Below, piece after piece: positions 5,512 through 33,623 of a stretch of 33,623 bases of DNA. Position 1 is the first letter of the stretch. Every line of letters begins with the position of its first letter. The translations under genes were made by a program, and so were the position numbers. The notes under the pieces are model-generated. The model was not told the DNA's origin. It worked only from the letters and a program-made list of their open reading frames with translations, and ran no database searches. The stretch is from Oscillospiraceae bacterium (GTDB lineage Bacteria; Bacillota; Clostridia; UMGS1810): positions 1 through 33,623 of the forward strand of contig SVJH01000022.1 in the NCBI GenBank assembly GCA_015069095.1, written 5' to 3'.

Positions 5512-6837
5512 ATGGCTGAAGAAATTATCAGAACTCTGCCACATAGTATAGAAGCAGAGCAAATCATTCTTGGTACTATTATTTTCGATAATGAATCTTT
5601 ACCTGATATAAGTTCAACATTAAAGATAAAAGATTTTTATTTAGAACAACACAAAAAAATATTTGAAGCAATGATTGATATATCAAACAGAGCAGAACCT
5701 ATTGATATTATTACATTGAAAAACACATTAGGACCTGCGTTTGACAACGCAGGTGGTATAGAATATTTAACACAGCTTCGATTTATGGTTTCAACTACTG
5801 CTAACATAAGATATCATGTTCAGATTGTAAAAGATAAATCAATTCTTAGAGATTTAATCCGTGCTTCAAATGACATTTTAAGCAATTGCTATAATGAAAA
5901 TGAAGTAAATGAAGTTATAAATATTGCTGAAAGTAGAATACTTGATATTTCGCAAGGTAAAGATAACACAGACATATTCCATATTAAGGATATCTTAGTT
6001 GATAACCTTGCTCGTCTTGATGAACTAAGAAAAAACAAAGGAAATGTTACCGGTGTACCAACAGGTTTTAAAGAACTTGACAAGAGAACTGCTGGATTAC
6101 AACCAACTGACCTTATCCTTATTGCTGCAAGACCATCTATGGGTAAAACAAGTTTTGCGATAAATATTGCGACAAATGCTGCTGTAAGATACGGAAAAAG
6201 TGTTGCTATTTTTAGCCTTGAAATGGGCAAAGAACAACTTGCAAACAGAATACTTTCATCAGAAGCGTTAATACCAAGCCAAAAAATGAGGGTAGGGGAC
6301 TTAACGATGGAAGATTGTGAACATCTTGTAAAGACTATGGATTTAGTTTCTAAATCAAATATATACATCGATGACACACCAGGTATTACCATTGCTGAAA
6401 TACGAGCAAAATGCAGAAGACTTAAACTTAAAGGTCAACTTGATTTAATTGTTGTCGATTACTTGCAGCTTATGGAAGGAAGCGGTAAGGAAAGCAGACA
6501 GCATGATGTATCGGATAACAGCCGTATGCTTAAAATTTTGGCAAAAGAATTACAGGTGCCTGTAATCACGCTTTCTCAGCTTAACCGTGAATCAGAAAAA
6601 CGTGGAGATCATAGACCTCAACTTAGTGACCTTAGAGATTCCGGTGCTATTGAACAGGATGCTGATATAGTACTATTTTTGTACAGAGATTCAAGATATA
6701 ACGAAAGTGCTGATGCAAATCTTGCGGAAGTTATTATCGCTAAGCACAGAAATGGTTCTCTTGATAAGTTTGAAGTTGGCTGGAGAGGCGAATATACTCA
6801 GTTTGTGGATATTGATTTAGTTCACAAAGAAGAATAA
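5512..6837 (+). CDS. dnaB: Replicative DNA helicase DnaB (B. subtilis DnaC)
   Basis: The 441-residue product begins MAEEIIRTLPHSIEAEQIILG, the typical DnaB start. An upstream ATG at 5482 would overlap rplI and has no ribosome site, whereas the ATG at 5512 is preceded by TGGAGGA (5501-5507). The N-terminal domain (about 1-100) is followed by a linker and the RecA-like helicase core: Walker A ARPSMGKTS with K212, Walker B IVVDYLQLM, LSQLNRESEKR and LSDLRDSGAIEQDAD. The hexameric enzyme unwinds DNA at the replication fork and recruits primase. It is the last gene of the yybS-gdpP-rplI-dnaB run; tilS begins 14 bases later and may be read through. Confidence 0.98.
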   Translation: MAEEIIRTLPHSIEAEQIILGTIIFDNESLPDISSTLKIKDFYLEQHKKIFEAMIDISNRAEPIDIITLKNTLGPAFDNAGGIEYLTQLRFMVSTTANIRYHVQIVKDKSILRDLIRASNDILSNCYNENEVNEVINIAESRILDISQGKDNTDIFHIKDILVDNLARLDELRKNKGNVTGVPTGFKELDKRTAGLQPTDLILIAARPSMGKTSFAINIATNAAVRYGKSVAIFSLEMGKEQLANRILSSEALIPSQKMRVGDLTMEDCEHLVKTMDLVSKSNIYIDDTPGITIAEIRAKCRRLKLKGQLDLIVVDYLQLMEGSGKESRQHDVSDNSRMLKILAKELQVPVITLSQLNRESEKRGDHRPQLSDLRDSGAIEQDADIVLFLYRDSRYNESADANLAEVIIAKHRNGSLDKFEVGWRGEYTQFVDIDLVHKEE

Positions 6838-12179: not shown

Positions 12180-13054
12180 AAATATCTATAAATTTATTTT
12201 TGTTGGTAATTTTAGTTCTACAAATTTCAGTAAACTTAATAATGGAACTGTTATTTGGAAATGTGTCAGAGTTTTTTAAAATTTATATTTCGCAGATTAT
12301 ACCACTATTTATTCCGTCTGTGTTATATTGTCTACATAAAAAAGAAGAAGGTTTTTCATGCATAAAAAGACAAGGACGTGTTACACTTGTTGGAGTTATC
12401 TTTGTAATTCTTCTTTCAGTGTGTATAAATATAGGAATAAATACATTCAATCAAGTTATTTATTCACCGATATTGAGTATTTTTGTAAAAAATACGACAA
12501 ATTCATTATTACCACAAACAAACTTTGATATAATACTAAATATATTGTTTATATGCATAACACCAGCAATTTTCGAAGAAATTTTGTTCAGGGGAATTGT
12601 ACTTACTGAATATGAAAAGATATACGGTACAAAGCGCGCTATATTTGTGTGTGGAGCAGTATTTGCGCTTCTTCATGGTGAAGTAACAGCCTTAATACCT
12701 CAGTTTATAGTAGGGGTGTTCATTTCGTTTATTGTAATAAGATTAGATTCAATTTATTATGGAATACTTGCTCATTTAGTTCACAATATATCAACTTTAG
12801 TTTTACACTTGCTATGGAACGCATTTCCATCTGGTTTAGTTTTTATGACAAAATATTGGATAATAACTTTTATAGGGATAGTAATTGTTATTTATGTAAT
12901 TTTTGCATTACTAAATAAAATAGTTAAACAAAAATCGTTAATTAAAGAAGATAAAGATAAGAAATTGCTTTACAAAGAAAATAAGTATTTCAAAATTATG
13001 TTGGCAATATTCATTATAATGACAATAATTAGAATAATTCTTTCATTTTTATAA
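12176..13054 (+). CDS. CPBP family intramembrane glutamic endopeptidase (CAAX protease / Abi)
   Basis: The 292-residue product has about eight membrane segments. The catalytic motifs of the CPBP (Rce1-like) family are present: motif 1 EEILFRG (E134, E135, R139), motif 2 FALLHGE (H167), and motif 3 HLVHN (H200, H203, N204). Bacterial members have been linked to bacteriocin immunity, protein processing and signalling, but most lack a known substrate. It starts inside the stop codon of the cyclo-ligase gene (ATGA overlap) and ends that operon. The C-terminal Lys-rich stretch (about 243-265) before the last membrane helix is probably cytoplasmic. No terminator of the usual kind follows; instead there is the palindrome at 13074-13101. 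Confidence 0.9.
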   Translation: MKISINLFLLVILVLQISVNLIMELLFGNVSEFFKIYISQIIPLFIPSVLYCLHKKEEGFSCIKRQGRVTLVGVIFVILLSVCINIGINTFNQVIYSPILSIFVKNTTNSLLPQTNFDIILNILFICITPAIFEEILFRGIVLTEYEKIYGTKRAIFVCGAVFALLHGEVTALIPQFIVGVFISFIVIRLDSIYYGILAHLVHNISTLVLHLLWNAFPSGLVFMTKYWIITFIGIVIVIYVIFALLNKIVKQKSLIKEDKDKKLLYKENKYFKIMLAIFIIMTIIRIILSFL

Positions 13055-13073
13055 TGATAGAGTAAAATAGATA

Positions 13074-13101
13074 ATTTCGCAAAATTAAAATTTTGCGAAA
13101 T
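13074..13101. repeat. 28-bp near-perfect palindrome in front of xer (dif-like candidate)
   Basis: Two 13-base arms, ATTTCGCAAAATT (13074-13086) and AATTTTGCGAAAT (13089-13101), flank a central AA. Viewed as 11+6+11 it is ATTTCGCAAAA / TTAAAA / TTTTGCGAAAT, the geometry of Xer recombination sites. It directly abuts the xer ribosome site (GGGAGG, 13102-13107), so as RNA it would form a hairpin just upstream of the start. No T-run follows, so it is not an ordinary terminator. Whether it is a recombination site, an operator or an RNA hairpin is not settled by sequence. Confidence 0.9.
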
Positions 13102-13115
13102 GGGAGGTAGAAAAA

Positions 13116-14102
13116 ATGCCTGATTTATCTAATATATATATAAAATGTCCGGTTTTTTTAAAAGACTACTTAACTTACATGTCTGTAATTAAAGGAAAAT
13201 CACAAAATACTATAAAAGAATATTTTTATGATTTAAGAATGTTTTTGCGTTATGTTTTATATATGAATGGTTTGTGTAAAAAGTCTGAATTAAATTCTAT
13301 TGATATTGCTGAGTTTGATTTTAAATATATTGAAAGAATTTCTTTAAGTGATTTATATGCTTTTATGGCGTATGTTAATAATGAACATTCTTCTAATGAT
13401 TGCTACAGAGCCAGAAAAGTTGCAAGTTTAAAATCTTTCTTTAATTATTTAACTATTAAAGATAAATCTTTAAAATTAAATCCAGCAGCAAATTTAGAAA
13501 CACCGAAAATAAAAAAGCGAATGCCAAAGTATCTTACTCTTGAACAAAGTATAAGTTTTTTAAAAGTGATTGATGGCGAATTTAAAGACCGTGATTTAGC
13601 AATATTTGTATTATTTTTAAATTGCGGATTAAGATTATCAGAGTTAGTTGGGATTAACCTTAAAGATTTTGATTTGGACAAAAGAACTTTAAAAGTTATT
13701 GGTAAAGGCAACAAAGAACGTGTTGTATATTTAAACGATATCTGTGTCGATGCTCTTACAAATTATCTAAAAGTAAGACCTGTTGATCAGGTTAATTATG
13801 AAGATCGTGATGCATTATTTTTGAGTAATCAATTAAGAAGAATTAGTAACAGAATGGTTGAAATCCTTGCCAAAAAATACTTTAAAAAAGCAAATCTTGA
13901 CTATGATATGTACACACCTCATAAACTTAGACATACAGCTGCGACGATTATGTATCGTGATGGTGATGTTGATATAAGAACGCTTCAGGAACTTTTGGGA
14001 CACGCAAGTTTGTCTACAACTCAGCTTTACACTCATGTAAAAAATGATGATTTAAAACAGGCTGCAGATAAAAATCCGCTTGCAAATATAAAAATAGAGT
14101 AG
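13116..14102 (+). CDS. Tyrosine recombinase, XerC/XerD family
   Basis: The 328-residue product has an N-terminal SAM-like core-binding domain (about 10-135: FLKDYLTYMSVIKGKSQNTIKEY is split over its first helices) and a C-terminal catalytic domain. All catalytic residues are visible: R173 in GLRLSEL, K197 in GKGNKER, H269 and R272 in HKLRHTA, H296 in LLGHAS, and the nucleophile Y305 in QLYTHV. Xer proteins resolve chromosome dimers at dif together with FtsK. The length is near that of XerC/XerD (about 300) and shorter than XerS (about 356). No phage or conjugation genes are nearby, so a chromosomal role is more likely than an integrase. A palindrome lies immediately upstream. Which Xer subfamily it belongs to is undetermined. 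Confidence 0.92.
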   Translation: MPDLSNIYIKCPVFLKDYLTYMSVIKGKSQNTIKEYFYDLRMFLRYVLYMNGLCKKSELNSIDIAEFDFKYIERISLSDLYAFMAYVNNEHSSNDCYRARKVASLKSFFNYLTIKDKSLKLNPAANLETPKIKKRMPKYLTLEQSISFLKVIDGEFKDRDLAIFVLFLNCGLRLSELVGINLKDFDLDKRTLKVIGKGNKERVVYLNDICVDALTNYLKVRPVDQVNYEDRDALFLSNQLRRISNRMVEILAKKYFKKANLDYDMYTPHKLRHTAATIMYRDGDVDIRTLQELLGHASLSTTQLYTHVKNDDLKQAADKNPLANIKIE

Positions 14103-14125
14103 GTATTCCCCTACTCTATTTTTTA
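14091..14125. terminator. Bidirectional terminator between xer and the DUF4956 gene
   Basis: AAAATAGAGTAGG (14091-14103) pairs perfectly with CCTACTCTATTTT (14110-14122) around a six-base loop. On the + strand the stem runs into TTTTTT; on the - strand it is followed by a T-rich stretch. It carries the stop codons of both convergent genes. Confidence 0.93.
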
Positions 14126-14857
14126 TAATGCTTTAATTTCTACGTTACTTGATACTGCAAGAGCAATATTTAAATTACCATTTCTACATCTTAGTTTATC
14201 AATCATTTCTTTTTCGTTAGTATCTTTTTTCAGACATACGTCAAAATATAACTGATATAATGTTCCCAAATCAACTGTTTTTATGCGTAATGTTTCAAAT
14301 GATACTGTATATTCTTCCAAAATATCATCAAATGCACCTTTAAAATTTAAATCTTCTGGCACAGTTATTTTTAATATGTAATGTCTGTTTTTTTGTGTTC
14401 CAAATTTTATTAAATCTAATATGATCAAGAATAAACATAATGAAACCACAAGCGCCAGCGCATACCATACAAGACCAACTCCACATCCTAAGCCGGCCGC
14501 CATAGCAAAGAAAATAAAAGTTATATCTTTACTCGACCCAGGGGCACTTCTGAATCTTATCAAAGAAAATGCACCTGCTAAGCTGAATGCGCGAGCAACA
14601 TTATTTCCTACGAGAAGAATTATTATTGAAATAATTGCCGGAATCATAGCAATAGAAACGATGAAATTCTGACTACTGTCTTTTTTTCTATTGATAAACA
14701 TATAAGTGAGACTTATAAATGTACCAAGAATAAATGCCATTAACAATGTAACGAATATTTCGTTAATTGAAGCAATAGAAGAACTACTTACAACATTATT
14801 AACATCATTTAAAGTAGTGATTTCGCTAGTAGTGGTAATTGCTGTTGCATAAAGCAT
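14123..14857 (-). CDS. DUF4956 family membrane protein, probable partner of the VTC-domain protein
   Basis: The 244-residue product has an N-terminal region with three or four membrane segments (about 34-55, 63-84, 112-150) and a C-terminal cytoplasmic domain (about 155-244). The segment GAFSLIRFRSAPGSSKD (95-111), with R101 and R103 and a following helix FIFFAMAAGLGCG, is the hallmark of DUF4956. The family has no proven biochemical role but is often encoded beside VTC-domain polyphosphate polymerase homologues, as here. AGGAGG seven bases before the ATG at 14857 fixes the start, giving a 49-base overlap with the end of the VTC gene. A bidirectional terminator ends the operon. A role as a membrane anchor or channel for polyphosphate is inference. 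Confidence 0.85.
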   Translation of the reverse strand: MLYATAITTTSEITTLNDVNNVVSSSSIASINEIFVTLLMAFILGTFISLTYMFINRKKDSSQNFIVSIAMIPAIISIIILLVGNNVARAFSLAGAFSLIRFRSAPGSSKDITFIFFAMAAGLGCGVGLVWYALALVVSLCLFLIILDLIKFGTQKNRHYILKITVPEDLNFKGAFDDILEEYTVSFETLRIKTVDLGTLYQLYFDVCLKKDTNEKEMIDKLRCRNGNLNIALAVSSNVEIKAL

Positions 14858-15582
14858 TTGTCATCCTCCTTAGTTAAACTAATTAGTCTTTTGTGTATCG
14901 AACCATATTTTGAAAATCCAGTAGAGTAAATTTTATTTTCACTCAAATAATTTGTAAGCCATATAGGAATTCCTTTTTCAGCTTTGATTTCAAGTATCCA
15001 ATAATCTTCTTTTAGTAATCTGTTACCTTTTTCGCTGCTTTCAAGCTGTAAGTTTTCTGTGTTAAAAAATATATTTCTGTCAAAAGAAACTCTTAAATCC
15101 TTAGTATCCAATGAAAAAAAAGCATATCTATCATATGAAATTTTTATCTTTGGGACAGGATTGTAAACAGAAATAAAATATGAAATTTCGTTTAAAACTT
15201 GCTTATTTATATAACCATTATTTTCTGGAAATATTTTGTTATTTAAAAAATCATAAGCTTCATAAAGTTTAATCTTTGTTCTTCTTTTATATGTAATACC
15301 GTTGTATTTTTTCTTTAATTCAATGTAAGAAAATGAATTTAAATCTGGTGTGCCGTACGTGCGAAGTCGTATTTTTTCTTTGTATATTGGTTTTTCTATT
15401 GAATTTCTTACTAAATAGTCATCATGTGTATCATAATATATATTAGAAATGTGATATGTATTGTCGTCTTTATTATATTTATCGGAAATCATATAAGTTT
15501 TTAAAAAATTACGCATTTTTAAGTATGCTTCGTTATCAATTACATACTTTTTTTCAGAGCGCCTAAAAACTTCTATTGCCAT
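14809..15582 (-). CDS. VTC domain-containing (polyphosphate polymerase-like) protein
   Basis: The product has 257 residues from the ATG at 15582, which has AGGAGG eight bases upstream; a longer frame to 15618 has no ribosome site. The protein is one VTC catalytic domain: RRSEKKYVID (7-16), SNIYYDT (46-52), the basic KEKIRLRTYG (K70, R72, R74), YIELKKK (E88, K90), TYKRRTK (R100, R101), KISYDR (R152), WILEIKAEKG (E198, K200) and the C-terminal SKYGSIHK. In yeast Vtc4 such residues line a tunnel that makes polyphosphate from ATP, and bacterial homologues belong to the same triphosphate-tunnel fold. The protein is soluble, and its membrane partner is probably the overlapping DUF4956 gene. A TATACT box at 15607-15612 could give separate transcription, but the -35 is poor. 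Confidence 0.88.
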   Translation of the reverse strand: MAIEVFRRSEKKYVIDNEAYLKMRNFLKTYMISDKYNKDDNTYHISNIYYDTHDDYLVRNSIEKPIYKEKIRLRTYGTPDLNSFSYIELKKKYNGITYKRRTKIKLYEAYDFLNNKIFPENNGYINKQVLNEISYFISVYNPVPKIKISYDRYAFFSLDTKDLRVSFDRNIFFNTENLQLESSEKGNRLLKEDYWILEIKAEKGIPIWLTNYLSENKIYSTGFSKYGSIHKRLISLTKEDDKCFMQQQLPLLAKSLL

Positions 15583-29456: not shown

Positions 29457-29485
29457 ATTATAACACATATTTTATTCAACTTCAA
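29457..29485 (-). promoter_or_regulatory. Sigma-A promoter for the Asp23/YqhY gene, inside the end of spoIIIAH
   Basis: TTGAAG (29485-29480) and TATAAT (29462-29457) on the - strand have 17-base spacing and TGT before the -10 (extended -10). The -35 lies in the last codons of spoIIIAH. Confidence 0.7.
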
Positions 29486-30008
29486 CTATTTTTACATTTT
29501 TTGTATCAATGTATTCATTAATCACATCATAAATTTGCGAAACCTGAGGCTCGGTGAGCTTTTTCCCTTTTACTGTTATAGTAACAGAGTCTTTATCAAC
29601 AAATGCCATTACATCTTCAAATCCTTTTAATTTTATTATATTTTCGATGTTTATTTCTTTTTCGATATTATCCGAAATATTTATAAGCATTTCTTCTGCT
29701 TTGATTTTTGCATCATCAGTCGTATTTGAATTATTTATCGTATTAGTTAATAAATCAATGTTTTCACTGCGAGATTCATCTCTTTCAAGTTTGCATTTAA
29801 CAAATAGATTTTCACCATTGTTTATTGTTCCGCTTGCCATTTTTGCTTCCCCTAATGTTCTTTCAGTCTCAGCATCTATTTGGTTTACTACATTGACATA
29901 TTCTTCAAGATCGCTTTGGTTATTACTTTCAAATCTTAAATATCCTGCAATACATACTCCAACAGCAAGTAAGAGTAATATCATTTTTCTTTTTTTAAAT
30001 GTAAACAT
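29472..30008 (-). CDS. spoIIIAH: Stage III sporulation protein AH
   Basis: The product has 178 residues from ATG 30008, which has GAGGA six bases upstream; an ATG at 30014 directly touches that site. One N-terminal membrane helix (about 7-23) is followed by a coiled-coil-like Glu-rich stretch and a C-terminal ring-building domain of the YscJ/FliF type, ending in VTITVKGKKLTEPQVSQIYDVINEYIDT and KNVKIVEVE. SpoIIIAH in the mother-cell membrane binds SpoIIQ of the forespore, forming the channel needed for late forespore gene expression. It is last of the spoIIIA operon, and spoIIIAG's stop lies in its ribosome site. Confidence 0.95.
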   Translation of the reverse strand: MFTFKKRKMILLLLAVGVCIAGYLRFESNNQSDLEEYVNVVNQIDAETERTLGEAKMASGTINNGENLFVKCKLERDESRSENIDLLTNTINNSNTTDDAKIKAEEMLINISDNIEKEINIENIIKLKGFEDVMAFVDKDSVTITVKGKKLTEPQVSQIYDVINEYIDTKNVKIVEVE

Positions 30009-30017
30009 ATGCATTCC

Positions 30018-30530
30018 TCACTTTCTTGGTAAAACCTCAACTTTATGTATTCCTACATTTAAAACTGTTTTTACTGCATTTTTTATGTTTCCCTTTACCG
30101 TGGAATTTTTTGCGCCATCTGCTACAACGATCACTCCTCTTACAGTCGGAATCATTTCTTTAACTACAAACGGAGTTTGTACATTACCTTCTTTGCTCAT
30201 AACAGTCATTGAATCTATATCTCTGACATTTTTATCGTTTTGCTCATTAGAAGAACTTTTAATATCTTTTGCTACAATTTTTTCAAATTTGTTTTCAAAA
30301 ACAATCATCACCTCAACTTTACCTGCGCCATTTATTTTTGACAGTATATCTTCGAGTTCTTTTTTTATCTTATTTTCATCAAAAGTATTAAGTTTTTCCT
30401 CGTTTTTTGCTGTATTATTATTTATTTTGAGTATACCAGGCCCAATCATAAGTATAATTCCGACTATCAAAATAATAACTAAAGTTTTTCTCGAATAATT
30501 CCCAATAATTCTTTTTATAATTTCGTTCAC
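30018..30530 (-). CDS. spoIIIAG: Stage III sporulation protein AG
   Basis: The 170-residue product starts at GTG 30530 with TGGAG about five bases upstream. One N-terminal membrane helix (about 16-34) is followed by a linker and a ring-building domain: LEDILSKINGAGKVEVMIVFE, a variable loop rich in Ser/Asn/Asp (about 90-115), then VVKEMIPTVRGVIVVADGA and a C-terminal helix with VKTVLNVGIHKVEVLP. SpoIIIAG forms a large ring in the mother-cell/forespore channel. It abuts spoIIIAF and shares its ribosome site with that gene's end. Confidence 0.95.
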   Translation of the reverse strand: MNEIIKRIIGNYSRKTLVIILIVGIILMIGPGILKINNNTAKNEEKLNTFDENKIKKELEDILSKINGAGKVEVMIVFENKFEKIVAKDIKSSSNEQNDKNVRDIDSMTVMSKEGNVQTPFVVKEMIPTVRGVIVVADGAKNSTVKGNIKNAVKTVLNVGIHKVEVLPRK

Positions 30531-31001
30531 TTATTCTCCAGTCCCATCTTCAAAGGTAATATTATCAATCGAATATGTCTTTTTTATGTGATTTTTTATA
30601 GTATTTTCACTTAACTTATTGCATTTTACAAATAAGGATATGTTGTCAAAATTCCCTTCAACTTTTGCGGTGATTGTGCAATCTAAATTTAATTTGTTTT
30701 TAATATTCTTTTCAATTTCATACTTCAAATTTTCCTCAAATAAGTCATTAATTTGCAAATCATATTCTTTCCTATAATTACTGCTATCAAAATTTATTGA
30801 TTTAAATAATTCACTTTCAGCAGGATTATATGTTATAGAAAGTAAAGAATATATTGAAGATATTATGGTAATTGTTATAATTAGTCCAAATGCAAATTTG
30901 ATATATTTTTTATATATACCTTCCGGGGATATGCTTTCAAGTACAACACTAATAAGAATTATTCCAATTGAAGATGCTACAAAATCAGAAAATACTTGCA
31001 T
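30531..31001 (-). CDS. spoIIIAF: Stage III sporulation protein AF
   Basis: The 156-residue product has two N-terminal membrane helices (about 7-25 and 33-55; SSIGIILISVVLESISPEGIYKKYIKFAFGL read in order) and a C-terminal soluble domain (about 85-156) with a ring-building-like alpha/beta pattern ending in the acidic ITFEDGTGE. It is a component of the SpoIIIA-SpoIIQ channel. AGGAG precedes the ATG and the gene lies 14 bases after spoIIIAE. Confidence 0.92.
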   Translation of the reverse strand: MQVFSDFVASSIGIILISVVLESISPEGIYKKYIKFAFGLIITITIISSIYSLLSITYNPAESELFKSINFDSSNYRKEYDLQINDLFEENLKYEIEKNIKNKLNLDCTITAKVEGNFDNISLFVKCNKLSENTIKNHIKKTYSIDNITFEDGTGE

Positions 31002-31015
31002 ATAAATTTCTCCTG

Positions 31016-32122
31016 TTAATTACAAAGTGCAATAATTATACCCAACGATAAAACCAACGTCATTGACACAATTAGTATCATTGTCGACATAATTTGTATA
31101 GAAGATGCCGCTCCACTTACTAAGTTACTTAGTTTTCTTTCTGAAACAGGTTCTATAATGCCGGCGGCAAGCCTATAAAGCCAAGTAATTACCAAAAGTT
31201 TTATATATGGATAAATACTTATAAGACATATTGCAATAATTCCAACTATTCCAACGGAGTTTTTAAGAAGCGTTGCTGACGAAACGACTGTATCGAGTGT
31301 ATCGGATAATAGTCTACCTACAACAGGAACAAAATTCCCCATAGAATACTTTATAGTTTTTATACCAATCCTATCAACTGTTGCACCTTTTAATCCCGAT
31401 AAACTTAATGCGCTGACAAAAACTGTCATTGAAAATCCCAAAATCCAATTTATAGTTTGCTTTAGCAAAGAAATTATCTTTGAAATTTGAATTTTATCAG
31501 ATGCATTGTTAACTGTGGTTAATAAAAACACCCAATAGTTAAGCGGAAAGAGCACGTTTTCTATAAGTTGTGTACAAATATGTATTAAGTATAAAAAAAT
31601 TGCATTGATTGCTGTCGCTGTACTTACATGACCGGTTGCTGCAACTGTAGTTACATACAAAGGTGTTGATACTTCAATTAGCGATATTTGTGTTTTGAGA
31701 GTGTTTTTTGCAAGTTCGTAGCAACTTTTATATGAACTTGCAAGGATATATATGTACACAAAATATATACTCAAAAATGCAATATCAGCAACATTCCGTC
31801 TTGAAAAAGATGATTGAAAATTTACAATAAACCCAGCAAATACAGAAAATGCGATTAAAAATAATATACTTTTTAAATTTACCTTTATTTCGCCAACAAT
31901 ATAACTTAACAAATCGGAAAATATATTTTGGTTTTCATCAGTGTATCCATTAAGTATATTTTCAACGTTTTTTTTAAAATCAAATTCTTTGTCATAAACT
32001 GACGATATTATATTGTTGATTTCATCAAAATCAGTACTTTCAAGAATTTCTGTTGCATGAGCAGTCTTCTGCATATATAATGTTAAAATTAAAACAATAA
32101 CTATCGTTAATCTATATTTCAT
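31016..32122 (-). CDS. spoIIIAE: Stage III sporulation protein AE
   Basis: The product has 368 residues from ATG 32122. An in-frame ATG at 32134 has no upstream ribosome site and its first codons supply the AGGAG used by 32122, though the spacing is short. It starts with a signal peptide (MKYRLTIVIVLILTLYMQKTAHA), then has an extracytoplasmic region and about seven membrane helices. Conserved family segments include GNFVPVVGRLLSDTLDTV, ATAINAIF and IIEPVSERKLS. SpoIIIAE is the largest membrane component of the mother-cell channel. It overlaps the end of spoIIIAD if 32134 is used, otherwise lies nine bases after it. Confidence 0.95.
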   Translation of the reverse strand: MKYRLTIVIVLILTLYMQKTAHATEILESTDFDEINNIISSVYDKEFDFKKNVENILNGYTDENQNIFSDLLSYIVGEIKVNLKSILFLIAFSVFAGFIVNFQSSFSRRNVADIAFLSIYFVYIYILASSYKSCYELAKNTLKTQISLIEVSTPLYVTTVAATGHVSTATAINAIFLYLIHICTQLIENVLFPLNYWVFLLTTVNNASDKIQISKIISLLKQTINWILGFSMTVFVSALSLSGLKGATVDRIGIKTIKYSMGNFVPVVGRLLSDTLDTVVSSATLLKNSVGIVGIIAICLISIYPYIKLLVITWLYRLAAGIIEPVSERKLSNLVSGAASSIQIMSTMILIVSMTLVLSLGIIIALCN

Positions 32123-32130
32123 TTTTCTCC

Positions 32131-32514
32131 TCATATCAATGTAAGAATTAAATCTGCAAGTGATATAATTATTGGAATTGTAAGTGCAATAATTATTATT
32201 TTGCCTGCAAATTCAACTTTGGCAGCATTTGATTTTTCGCCGGCATCTTCACAAATCGTTGATGCAAACTCGCATATATATGACACGACTACAATTTTTA
32301 AAATAATAGCAAAGAATTCTGAATTAAGGTTGAATTTTCCTACAAGTTCGTATACCGAGTTTGATATGTTACCTATGTACTTAGTGATACTTATAAAAAC
32401 AAAAGTTCCAAATATTAAACTTAAATATATCGAAAATTCTGCTGCAGACTTTCTTAAAATGACTGACAGTATTGTAGTTATTATCGCTAATGCGCTGATT
32501 TGTATTATACTCAT
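32131..32514 (-). CDS. spoIIIAD: Stage III sporulation protein AD
   Basis: The 127-residue membrane protein has about four helices. The segment VVSYICEFASTICEDAGEKSNAAKVEFAGKIIIIALTIPI is the clear SpoIIIAD/AC family signature. It starts inside the stop codon of spoIIIAC (ATGA overlap), indicating coupled translation. It is a membrane component of the SpoIIIA channel. Confidence 0.95.
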   Translation of the reverse strand: MSIIQISALAIITTILSVILRKSAAEFSIYLSLIFGTFVFISITKYIGNISNSVYELVGKFNLNSEFFAIILKIVVVSYICEFASTICEDAGEKSNAAKVEFAGKIIIIALTIPIIISLADLILTLI

Positions 32515-32705
32515 AGATTAAATATCGACTTAATTGTTTCAAACAATAAACTAATCTGATTTATTACCATAAGTAACACAACAATAAGTCCTGTAAGAGT
32601 CGTCATCATAGCTTGTTCTTCTCTGCCTGACCTTATCAACACCTGATTTAAAACAGATACTATTATTCCAATTGCTGCTATTTGAAAAATTAAATCTACT
32701 TCCAT
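32511..32705 (-). CDS. spoIIIAC: Stage III sporulation protein AC
   Basis: The 64-residue protein has two membrane helices (about 6-22 and 36-55) connected by the basic, conserved loop LIRSGREEQAMM. The length and sequence fit SpoIIIAC, a small mother-cell channel subunit. AGGAGG-like bases (TAGGAGG) precede the ATG; it overlaps spoIIIAD by four bases. Confidence 0.96.
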   Translation of the reverse strand: MEVDLIFQIAAIGIIVSVLNQVLIRSGREEQAMMTTLTGLIVVLLMVINQISLLFETIKSIFNL

Positions 32706-32720
32706 TGTATCCTCCTAAAA

Positions 32721-33215
32721 CTAAATAAGTAAAACAACTACTAATATTCCACCATATAGTGCTAAATTTCTAAATAATTTTTCGTTTTTCAGTATATAAT
32801 TTTCTTTTTTATATATTTCACTTTCCAAATTTAATAAATAGTTTTCAAACAAGTTTTTTTGACCTTCAACATCTACCGATAAAAAAAGATTAACAAAATC
32901 AAAAAAAATTTTTTTATCAGTTTTTAATGTAACTATATTGTCTATACATGATTTCCATTTTACATCGATATCTTCTGTGTGATTATCTTCAATAAAACTT
33001 TCATAAATTGTCTTCATATATGTGTTATTATGAGATAACTGTTTAATTATTTTAGGTAACGGTTCTTTACAAAAATATATGTTGTTTTTCATATATAAGA
33101 TATCATTTTTAAAATCTTTAAGTCTTAATAAACTTATTTTTAAATCTTTACATTTTAAAAATCCATACATATATGATGAAACTATTATAAAAATTGCCCC
33201 AATAAACTTATACAT
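32721..33215 (-). CDS. spoIIIAB: Stage III sporulation protein AB
   Basis: The 164-residue product has one N-terminal helix (about 3-18), a long alpha-helical cytoplasmic part with SLLRLKDFKNDILYMKNNIYFCKEPLPKII in consecutive helices, and a C-terminal hydrophobic helix (about 150-164). It resembles the type II secretion platform protein GspF in fold and is thought to work with the ATPase SpoIIIAA. The sequence is Lys/Asn-rich and more diverged than its neighbours, but position and topology fit. AAGGTG lies upstream of the ATG. Confidence 0.9.
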   Translation of the reverse strand: MYKFIGAIFIIVSSYMYGFLKCKDLKISLLRLKDFKNDILYMKNNIYFCKEPLPKIIKQLSHNNTYMKTIYESFIEDNHTEDIDVKWKSCIDNIVTLKTDKKIFFDFVNLFLSVDVEGQKNLFENYLLNLESEIYKKENYILKNEKLFRNLALYGGILVVVLLI

Positions 33216-33222
33216 CTGTCAT

Positions 33223-33623
33223 TCACCTTGTTTTGACAACATTTTCTATTGTTCCCGGTCCGTTTTTTCTGCTGAGTACAATAAATGTTTCAAAAAAGTC
33301 TTTAATCTTTTTTGAATATTCACTTTTTAAAAATTCATTATAATCTCCGGCATGAATTGAAGTTATGATTTTCACACCGGAACATAGTGCTTTTTTTAAC
33401 GCCAAAATATCATCATCGTTACCTATTTCGTCTGTAATAATCACGTCAGGAGACATTGCTCTTATCAACATATTTATCCCATCAGTTTTTTTGCAACCAC
33501 ATATAACAAACGAATGAAGACCTATGTCATTTAAAACTTTTCCATTAACTAATGATGCAATTTCATTTCTTTCATCTACAATGCCTACTTTTTTAGCATA
33601 TTCCTCACTTCCAAATAAATACG
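33223..33623 (-). CDS. spoIIIAA: Stage III sporulation protein AA, C-terminal part (5' truncated by window)
   Basis: The frame is open from the TGA/TAA-side stop at 33223 to the window edge, so the true start is outside; a shorter frame starting at an internal ATG (33471) is only part of it. Visible segments are KKVGIVDERNEIASLVNG, FVICGCKKTDGINMLIRAMSP and the Walker B-like VIITDEIGNDDD, then IITSIHAGD. This is the C-terminal half of the GspE/VirB11-like ATPase that powers or assembles the SpoIIIA channel. The Walker A motif would lie beyond the right edge. It is the first gene of the spoIIIA operon; its mother-cell promoter is not in the window. Confidence 0.95.
   Translation of the reverse strand, partial: YLFGSEEYAKKVGIVDERNEIASLVNGKVLNDIGLHSFVICGCKKTDGINMLIRAMSPDVIITDEIGNDDDILALKKALCSGVKIITSIHAGDYNEFLKSEYSKKIKDFFETFIVLSRKNGPGTIENVVKTR

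Follow-up and report, generated by a model that had tools for sequence, protein, structure and literature searches.

A symmetric palindrome in front of xer as the likely dif site of an Xer recombinase lineage widespread in Clostridia

Reviews of Xer recombination name the XerCD, XerS, XerH, and XerA systems. In E. coli and B. subtilis, the two recombinases of XerCD act at dif, a 28-bp terminus site of 11-6-11 form with unlike arms (those of E. coli agree at 6/11 positions). The single-recombinase systems are XerS/difSL of streptococci and lactococci, XerH/difH of Helicobacter and Campylobacter, and XerA/dif of archaea (PMC5357621). difSL lies beside its gene at the terminus and has 31 bp, an 11-bp central region, and unequal arms; difH lies near the gene for XerH, a protein of 354–362 aa, and has imperfect arms of 11 and 10 bp; and XerA, said to act without FtsK, uses a 28-bp 11-6-11 site that is linked to its gene in some species only and is usually not located at 180 degrees from oriC (PMC5357621).

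We analyzed a contig of 33,623 nucleotides from an Oscillospiraceae bacterium (assembly GCA_015069095.1, contig SVJH01000022.1), hereafter the window. Directly in front of a tyrosine recombinase gene, xer, lies a perfect palindrome with arms of 13 bp around a central AA, just as an earlier note made from the sequence had described it, and the ribosome-binding site of xer follows its 3′ end immediately (Table 1). No perfect 13-2-13 palindrome arose in 200 dinucleotide shuffles of the window (0/200). Perfect 11-6-11 palindromes number five in the window versus 0.06 per dinucleotide shuffle; of the remaining four, at least one, at 14093, resembles a terminator hairpin. The search of the whole genome that the earlier note had proposed returned no extra copies: the 28-mer was single-copy at up to three mismatches in its own assembly (2,062,222 bases in 46 contigs, 97.9% complete).

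Table 1. Features of the xer locus in the window.
Feature	Positions	Strand	Basis or remark
28-bp palindrome ATTTCGCAAAA-TTAAAA-TTTTGCGAAAT, proposed dif site of the adjacent recombinase	13074–13101	.	11+6+11
Putative left recombinase-binding arm, ATTTCGCAAAA	13074–13084	+	Arm consensus of 30 xer-adjacent sites
Central region TTAAAA, the sole asymmetric part	13085–13090	.	Centre free between genomes, arms symmetric
Putative right recombinase-binding arm, TTTTGCGAAAT	13091–13101	-	Reverse-complements the left arm exactly
GGGAGG, likely ribosome-binding site of xer	13102–13107	+	Sequence reading
Tyrosine recombinase gene xer (328 aa; start codon ATG at 13116), class-wide Xer lineage apart from XerC and XerD	13116–14102	+	
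Likely terminator at the xer end	14090–14123	+	14-bp inverted repeat, then a T run
Switch of GC skew (~+0.2 on the left, ~-0.15 on the right) and of gene strand (+ to -)	13000–15000	.	Terminus signature

The locus shares with XerS/difSL a site beside its gene, a terminus location, and probably the use of one recombinase, whereas its site has 28 bp, a 6-bp centre, and equal arms. It shares with XerH/difH a site near the gene and probably again one recombinase, although the protein is shorter (328 aa) and the arms are again equal; with XerA/dif it has in common a 28-bp 11-6-11 site, a linkage of gene and site in some species only, and probably one recombinase, although XerA is archaeal. The likeness to XerCD/dif covers the 28-bp 11-6-11 terminus site, the Xer domains, and an FtsK γ domain (97.6 bits in this genome), whereas the equal arms and the separate protein clade differ. 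Judged from sequence, the clostridial system would work like the three single-recombinase systems, and it fails the defining features of each that were tested.

Direct likeness to known dif sequences contributed little to this comparison. The match counts given in the earlier note were reproduced with the dif sequences printed in PMC3025954: the palindrome agrees with E. coli dif at 7/11 positions in the left arm, 3/6 in the centre, and 8/11 in the right arm, and with B. subtilis dif at 17/28. Their value as evidence fell away, because 27 positions in the window reach at least 17/28 to B. subtilis dif, the best of them (19/28) elsewhere in the window; such likeness is near chance in AT-rich DNA and carries little weight. 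No better dif was found elsewhere in the genome, and across 293 genomes of the class the B. subtilis-type dif pattern gave counts like those of the reversed control among the matches listed. Kono et al. predicted dif in 97/100 Firmicutes using a B. subtilis-seeded model, which failed in two Clostridium species (PMC3025954); some of the clostridial sites described here may be among those predictions.

The xer product contains Xer domains and the R-K-H-R-H-Y catalytic residues of a tyrosine recombinase, and R173, K197, H269, R272, H296, and Y305 were invariant in 17 aligned members. It passed none of the curated cut-offs of the XerC, XerD, XerA, and XerS models. The best NCBIfam match was the XerC model TIGR02224 (227.7 bits; cut-off 335.15), and the scores for XerA (NF040815; 216.2 bits, just below the cut-off of 220), XerD (TIGR02225; 210.3 bits; cut-off 329.6), and XerS (NF003462; 168.6 bits; cut-off 267) were lower; the XerH structure 5jjv gave a weak phmmer alignment of 59 bits. 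Orthologs of xer were found in 188/293 genomes of the class, with one copy each in nearly all, and no ortholog reached the cut-off in 105/293, some close relatives among them. When Bacillota XerC and XerD were put into one tree with both E. coli proteins, the 23 orthologs included formed a single long-stemmed clade (100/100 support) outside XerC and XerD, although long branches meet there and make the position with respect to E. coli XerC less certain. XerC over the cut-off was found in 0/293 class genomes and XerD in 88/293; genomes of other classes of the phylum mostly encode two XerC/D proteins. The recombinase very probably represents a third, unnamed Xer branch that occupies, in most Clostridia, the place of a recognisable XerC. 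Databases label its members XerC, and the papers retrieved contain no description of a separate Xer lineage of Clostridia or of its symmetric site.

The palindrome is conserved upstream of orthologous xer genes in its 11-6-11 form, with arms that differ between loci (e.g., ATTATACAAAA, ATTGCGCAAAA, and ACTTCGCTAAA). A matrix built from 30 xer-adjacent sites identified sites in 49 loci, comprising 40 distinct 28-mers and 22 different left arms; reversed loci scored at most 3.1, and true sites mostly above 15. Non-matching letters were present in 9/440 arm pairs, in a scan that allowed at most one arm mismatch per site and therefore favours symmetric sites, and in f7 genomes the two arms disagree at one to three positions. 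From genome to genome the 6-bp centre is free to change, whereas arm symmetry is kept. Among the listed matches to the motif with at most one mismatch, all 11 genomes have the xer ortholog. Two centres occur in either orientation with respect to xer, as though the site had flipped in place: TAGTTA/TAACTA in L049 and L062, and TGAATA/TATTCA in L052, L072, and L080 against L016 and L097. Genome G036 holds a second perfect copy with a different centre on another contig of 103 kb (L216:1828-1855), perhaps a second replicon.

The position of the sites bears directly on function, since a hairpin or operator in the xer leader should follow xer, whereas dif should follow the terminus. In the window, GC skew changes from positive to negative at the palindrome, and the genes turn from one strand to the other at the same place (Table 1), which is the look of a replication terminus; skew in this genome was read from stretches. 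On sequence alone, a run of - strand genes farther along (29472-33471) resembles spoIIIA, a sporulation operon. Flanks of 4 kb or more on each side were available for 32 sites in the class; skew was positive on the left and negative on the right at 28 of them and the opposite at none, the loci behind these counts being related rather than independent, and 14 of the 32 lie more than 300 bp from the start of the xer match. Where a locus had no site, the skew kept its sign across the locus in 20/28 cases. The site lies at the switch or a few kilobases from it in seven complete genomes (G252, G205, G181, G038, G049, G160, and G244) and in a large contig of G298; in G252, it is 16 kb from xer and at most 5 kb from the skew switch.

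Two genomes with no xer-adjacent site were used for blind prediction by reading the stretch toward the expected switch and listing all palindromes together with the skew. In G039, the switch was placed at ~2.365 Mb and the site was found at 2365777, 66 kb from xer; in G131, the switch was placed at ~363-368 kb and the site was found at 363330, 14 kb from xer. Three cases depart from this pattern: in G121, a site linked to xer shows no skew switch nearby; at locus L056, there is hardly any switch; and in G149, no recognisable site was found near the switch.

Sites of this kind were also found in connection with mobile DNA. In Pusillibacter faecalis, a microvirus provirus of ~5.3 kb (L335:6623-11922) is flanked by radA (left) and xer (right) and encodes capsid protein F (Phage_F, 1e-173), a replication protein, ORF5, and a pilot protein but no integrase. 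Its end sites are at 6623 and 11895, the one on the xer side being strong and the one on the radA side having one degraded arm; in a relative, Pseudoflavonifractor (L116), the order is radA, site, xer, and the phage is absent. Xer-dependent microviruses show a similar pattern of insertion at dif (PMC7062461). These are likewise small ssDNA phages that lack an integrase and have one end site conserved and the other more variable, but they use XerCD of Enterobacteria or Bacteroidetes (PMC7062461, PMC3091885), whereas the provirus in P. faecalis sits at a clostridial site. Its insertion at the proposed dif would point to use of the site in vivo and is indirect evidence for strand exchange.

The motif was present in 27 viral contigs and its reordered control in 0. 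Of 23 motif-bearing viral records tested, some of them fragments, 19 had no tyrosine integrase; the window's own arms were found in none of the viral contigs. In one phage family (L259, L262, L267, L271, L273, L276, and L279), the palindrome follows the portal gene, and its flanks and arms are conserved while the 6-bp centre is hypervariable. Elsewhere (L261:1747-7014), an inovirus-like Rep_trans replication protein and a Zot-family ATPase adjoin the recombinase gene and its site. The 421-kb Ruminococcus albus plasmid pRUMAL01 encodes a recombinase of the clostridial Xer lineage and has a perfect palindrome of its own in front of the gene (L336:11931-12957), and no clear skew switch was seen around that site.

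We consider it highly likely that the palindrome is the dif of this bacterium, its site of chromosome-dimer resolution, and that the product of the adjacent xer gene is the recombinase acting there, because sites across the class lie at the terminus, combine near-identical 11-bp arms with a free 6-bp centre, are tied to the recombinase lineage, and have received a microvirus. Comparison across genomes thereby supports the proposal in the earlier note that an unusually symmetrical site forms part of a dimer-resolution module. A self-contained module with a single recombinase drew support from relatives that lack XerD but not from this genome, in which the search for other Xer genes found no XerC over the cut-off and did find an XerD (C28:90492-91352, L002; 356.5 bits, over the NCBIfam cut-off). 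The dif could instead be used by a mixed tetramer in which the recombinase, as a diverged XerC, joins this orthodox XerD in a two-recombinase system of XerCD type, and the presence of XerD in other genomes of the class, the XerC model as best match, and the annotation of the plasmid-borne homologs as XerC all fit such a pairing. We nevertheless regard it as unlikely: the XerC score is far under its cut-off, the clade falls outside XerC and XerD (with the reservation on long branches given above), and the nearly identical arms are not one of XerC type and one of XerD type. Moreover, six genomes (G021, G051, G081, G125, G128, and G235) encode no other XerD-like protein at E ≤ 1e-15, and three of them (G021, G081, and G125) also carry the site. 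Because this genome has an XerD, the single-recombinase system is argued from these relatives, and the sequences are probably best read as an Xer/dif system, common in Clostridia, in which a single recombinase acts on a symmetric site.

The remaining explanations deny that the palindrome is a dif. That it is only an operator or an RNA hairpin controlling transcription or translation of xer, as the earlier note had offered as an alternative, would suit a palindrome that abuts the ribosome site, folds well as RNA (z -4.2), and in a few loci (e.g., L023) has a good -10 element overlapping its left arm. As the main function this is very improbable, since the palindrome stays at the skew switch even when it is kilobases from xer or downstream of it, and is intergenic in phages and present at a provirus end. 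Promoter scores beside the palindrome were near background (6.6 vs 6.0), and promoter overlap was rejected as a general rule; the RNA-hairpin reading, for all its good fold, was rejected because the site occurs at the terminus without xer. A second, regulatory role beside that of dif may exist, and with the site abutting the xer ribosome site the recombinase may also repress its own gene. Still less probable is that gene and palindrome are the integrase and attachment site of a mobile element. Phages and plasmids do carry tyrosine recombinases of similar size, and homologs of this one occur on megaplasmids, but the presence of just one copy in nearly all of the 188 genomes, the single well-supported clade, the constant terminus location, and the lack of an element around the gene in the window all speak against this reading.

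In the proposed mechanism of dimer resolution, four copies of the one recombinase would bind two sites, FtsK would translocate to the site at the septum and activate exchange, and crossover within the 6-bp centre would split the dimer into its two monomers. With identical arms, the half-sites would have no distinct XerC and XerD roles, which would leave the centre or FtsK as the only source of direction. It seems probable that in most Clostridia this third Xer lineage alone resolves dimers on a near-symmetric dif, with equal half-sites replacing the fixed XerC-XerD order, and that XerD, where retained, took on another task. Work cited in PMC13342612 gives XerD of B. subtilis the further task of unloading SMC at dif.

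If this reading is true, the annotation of a housekeeping gene would change across an entire class of bacteria of the gut and of industry, and the terminus in Clostridia could be located in a simple way. The site would be one used by small phages and perhaps by plasmids. How FtsK orders strand exchange could then be studied on an Xer site that is symmetric by nature, as could the role that XerD plays when dif does not need it.
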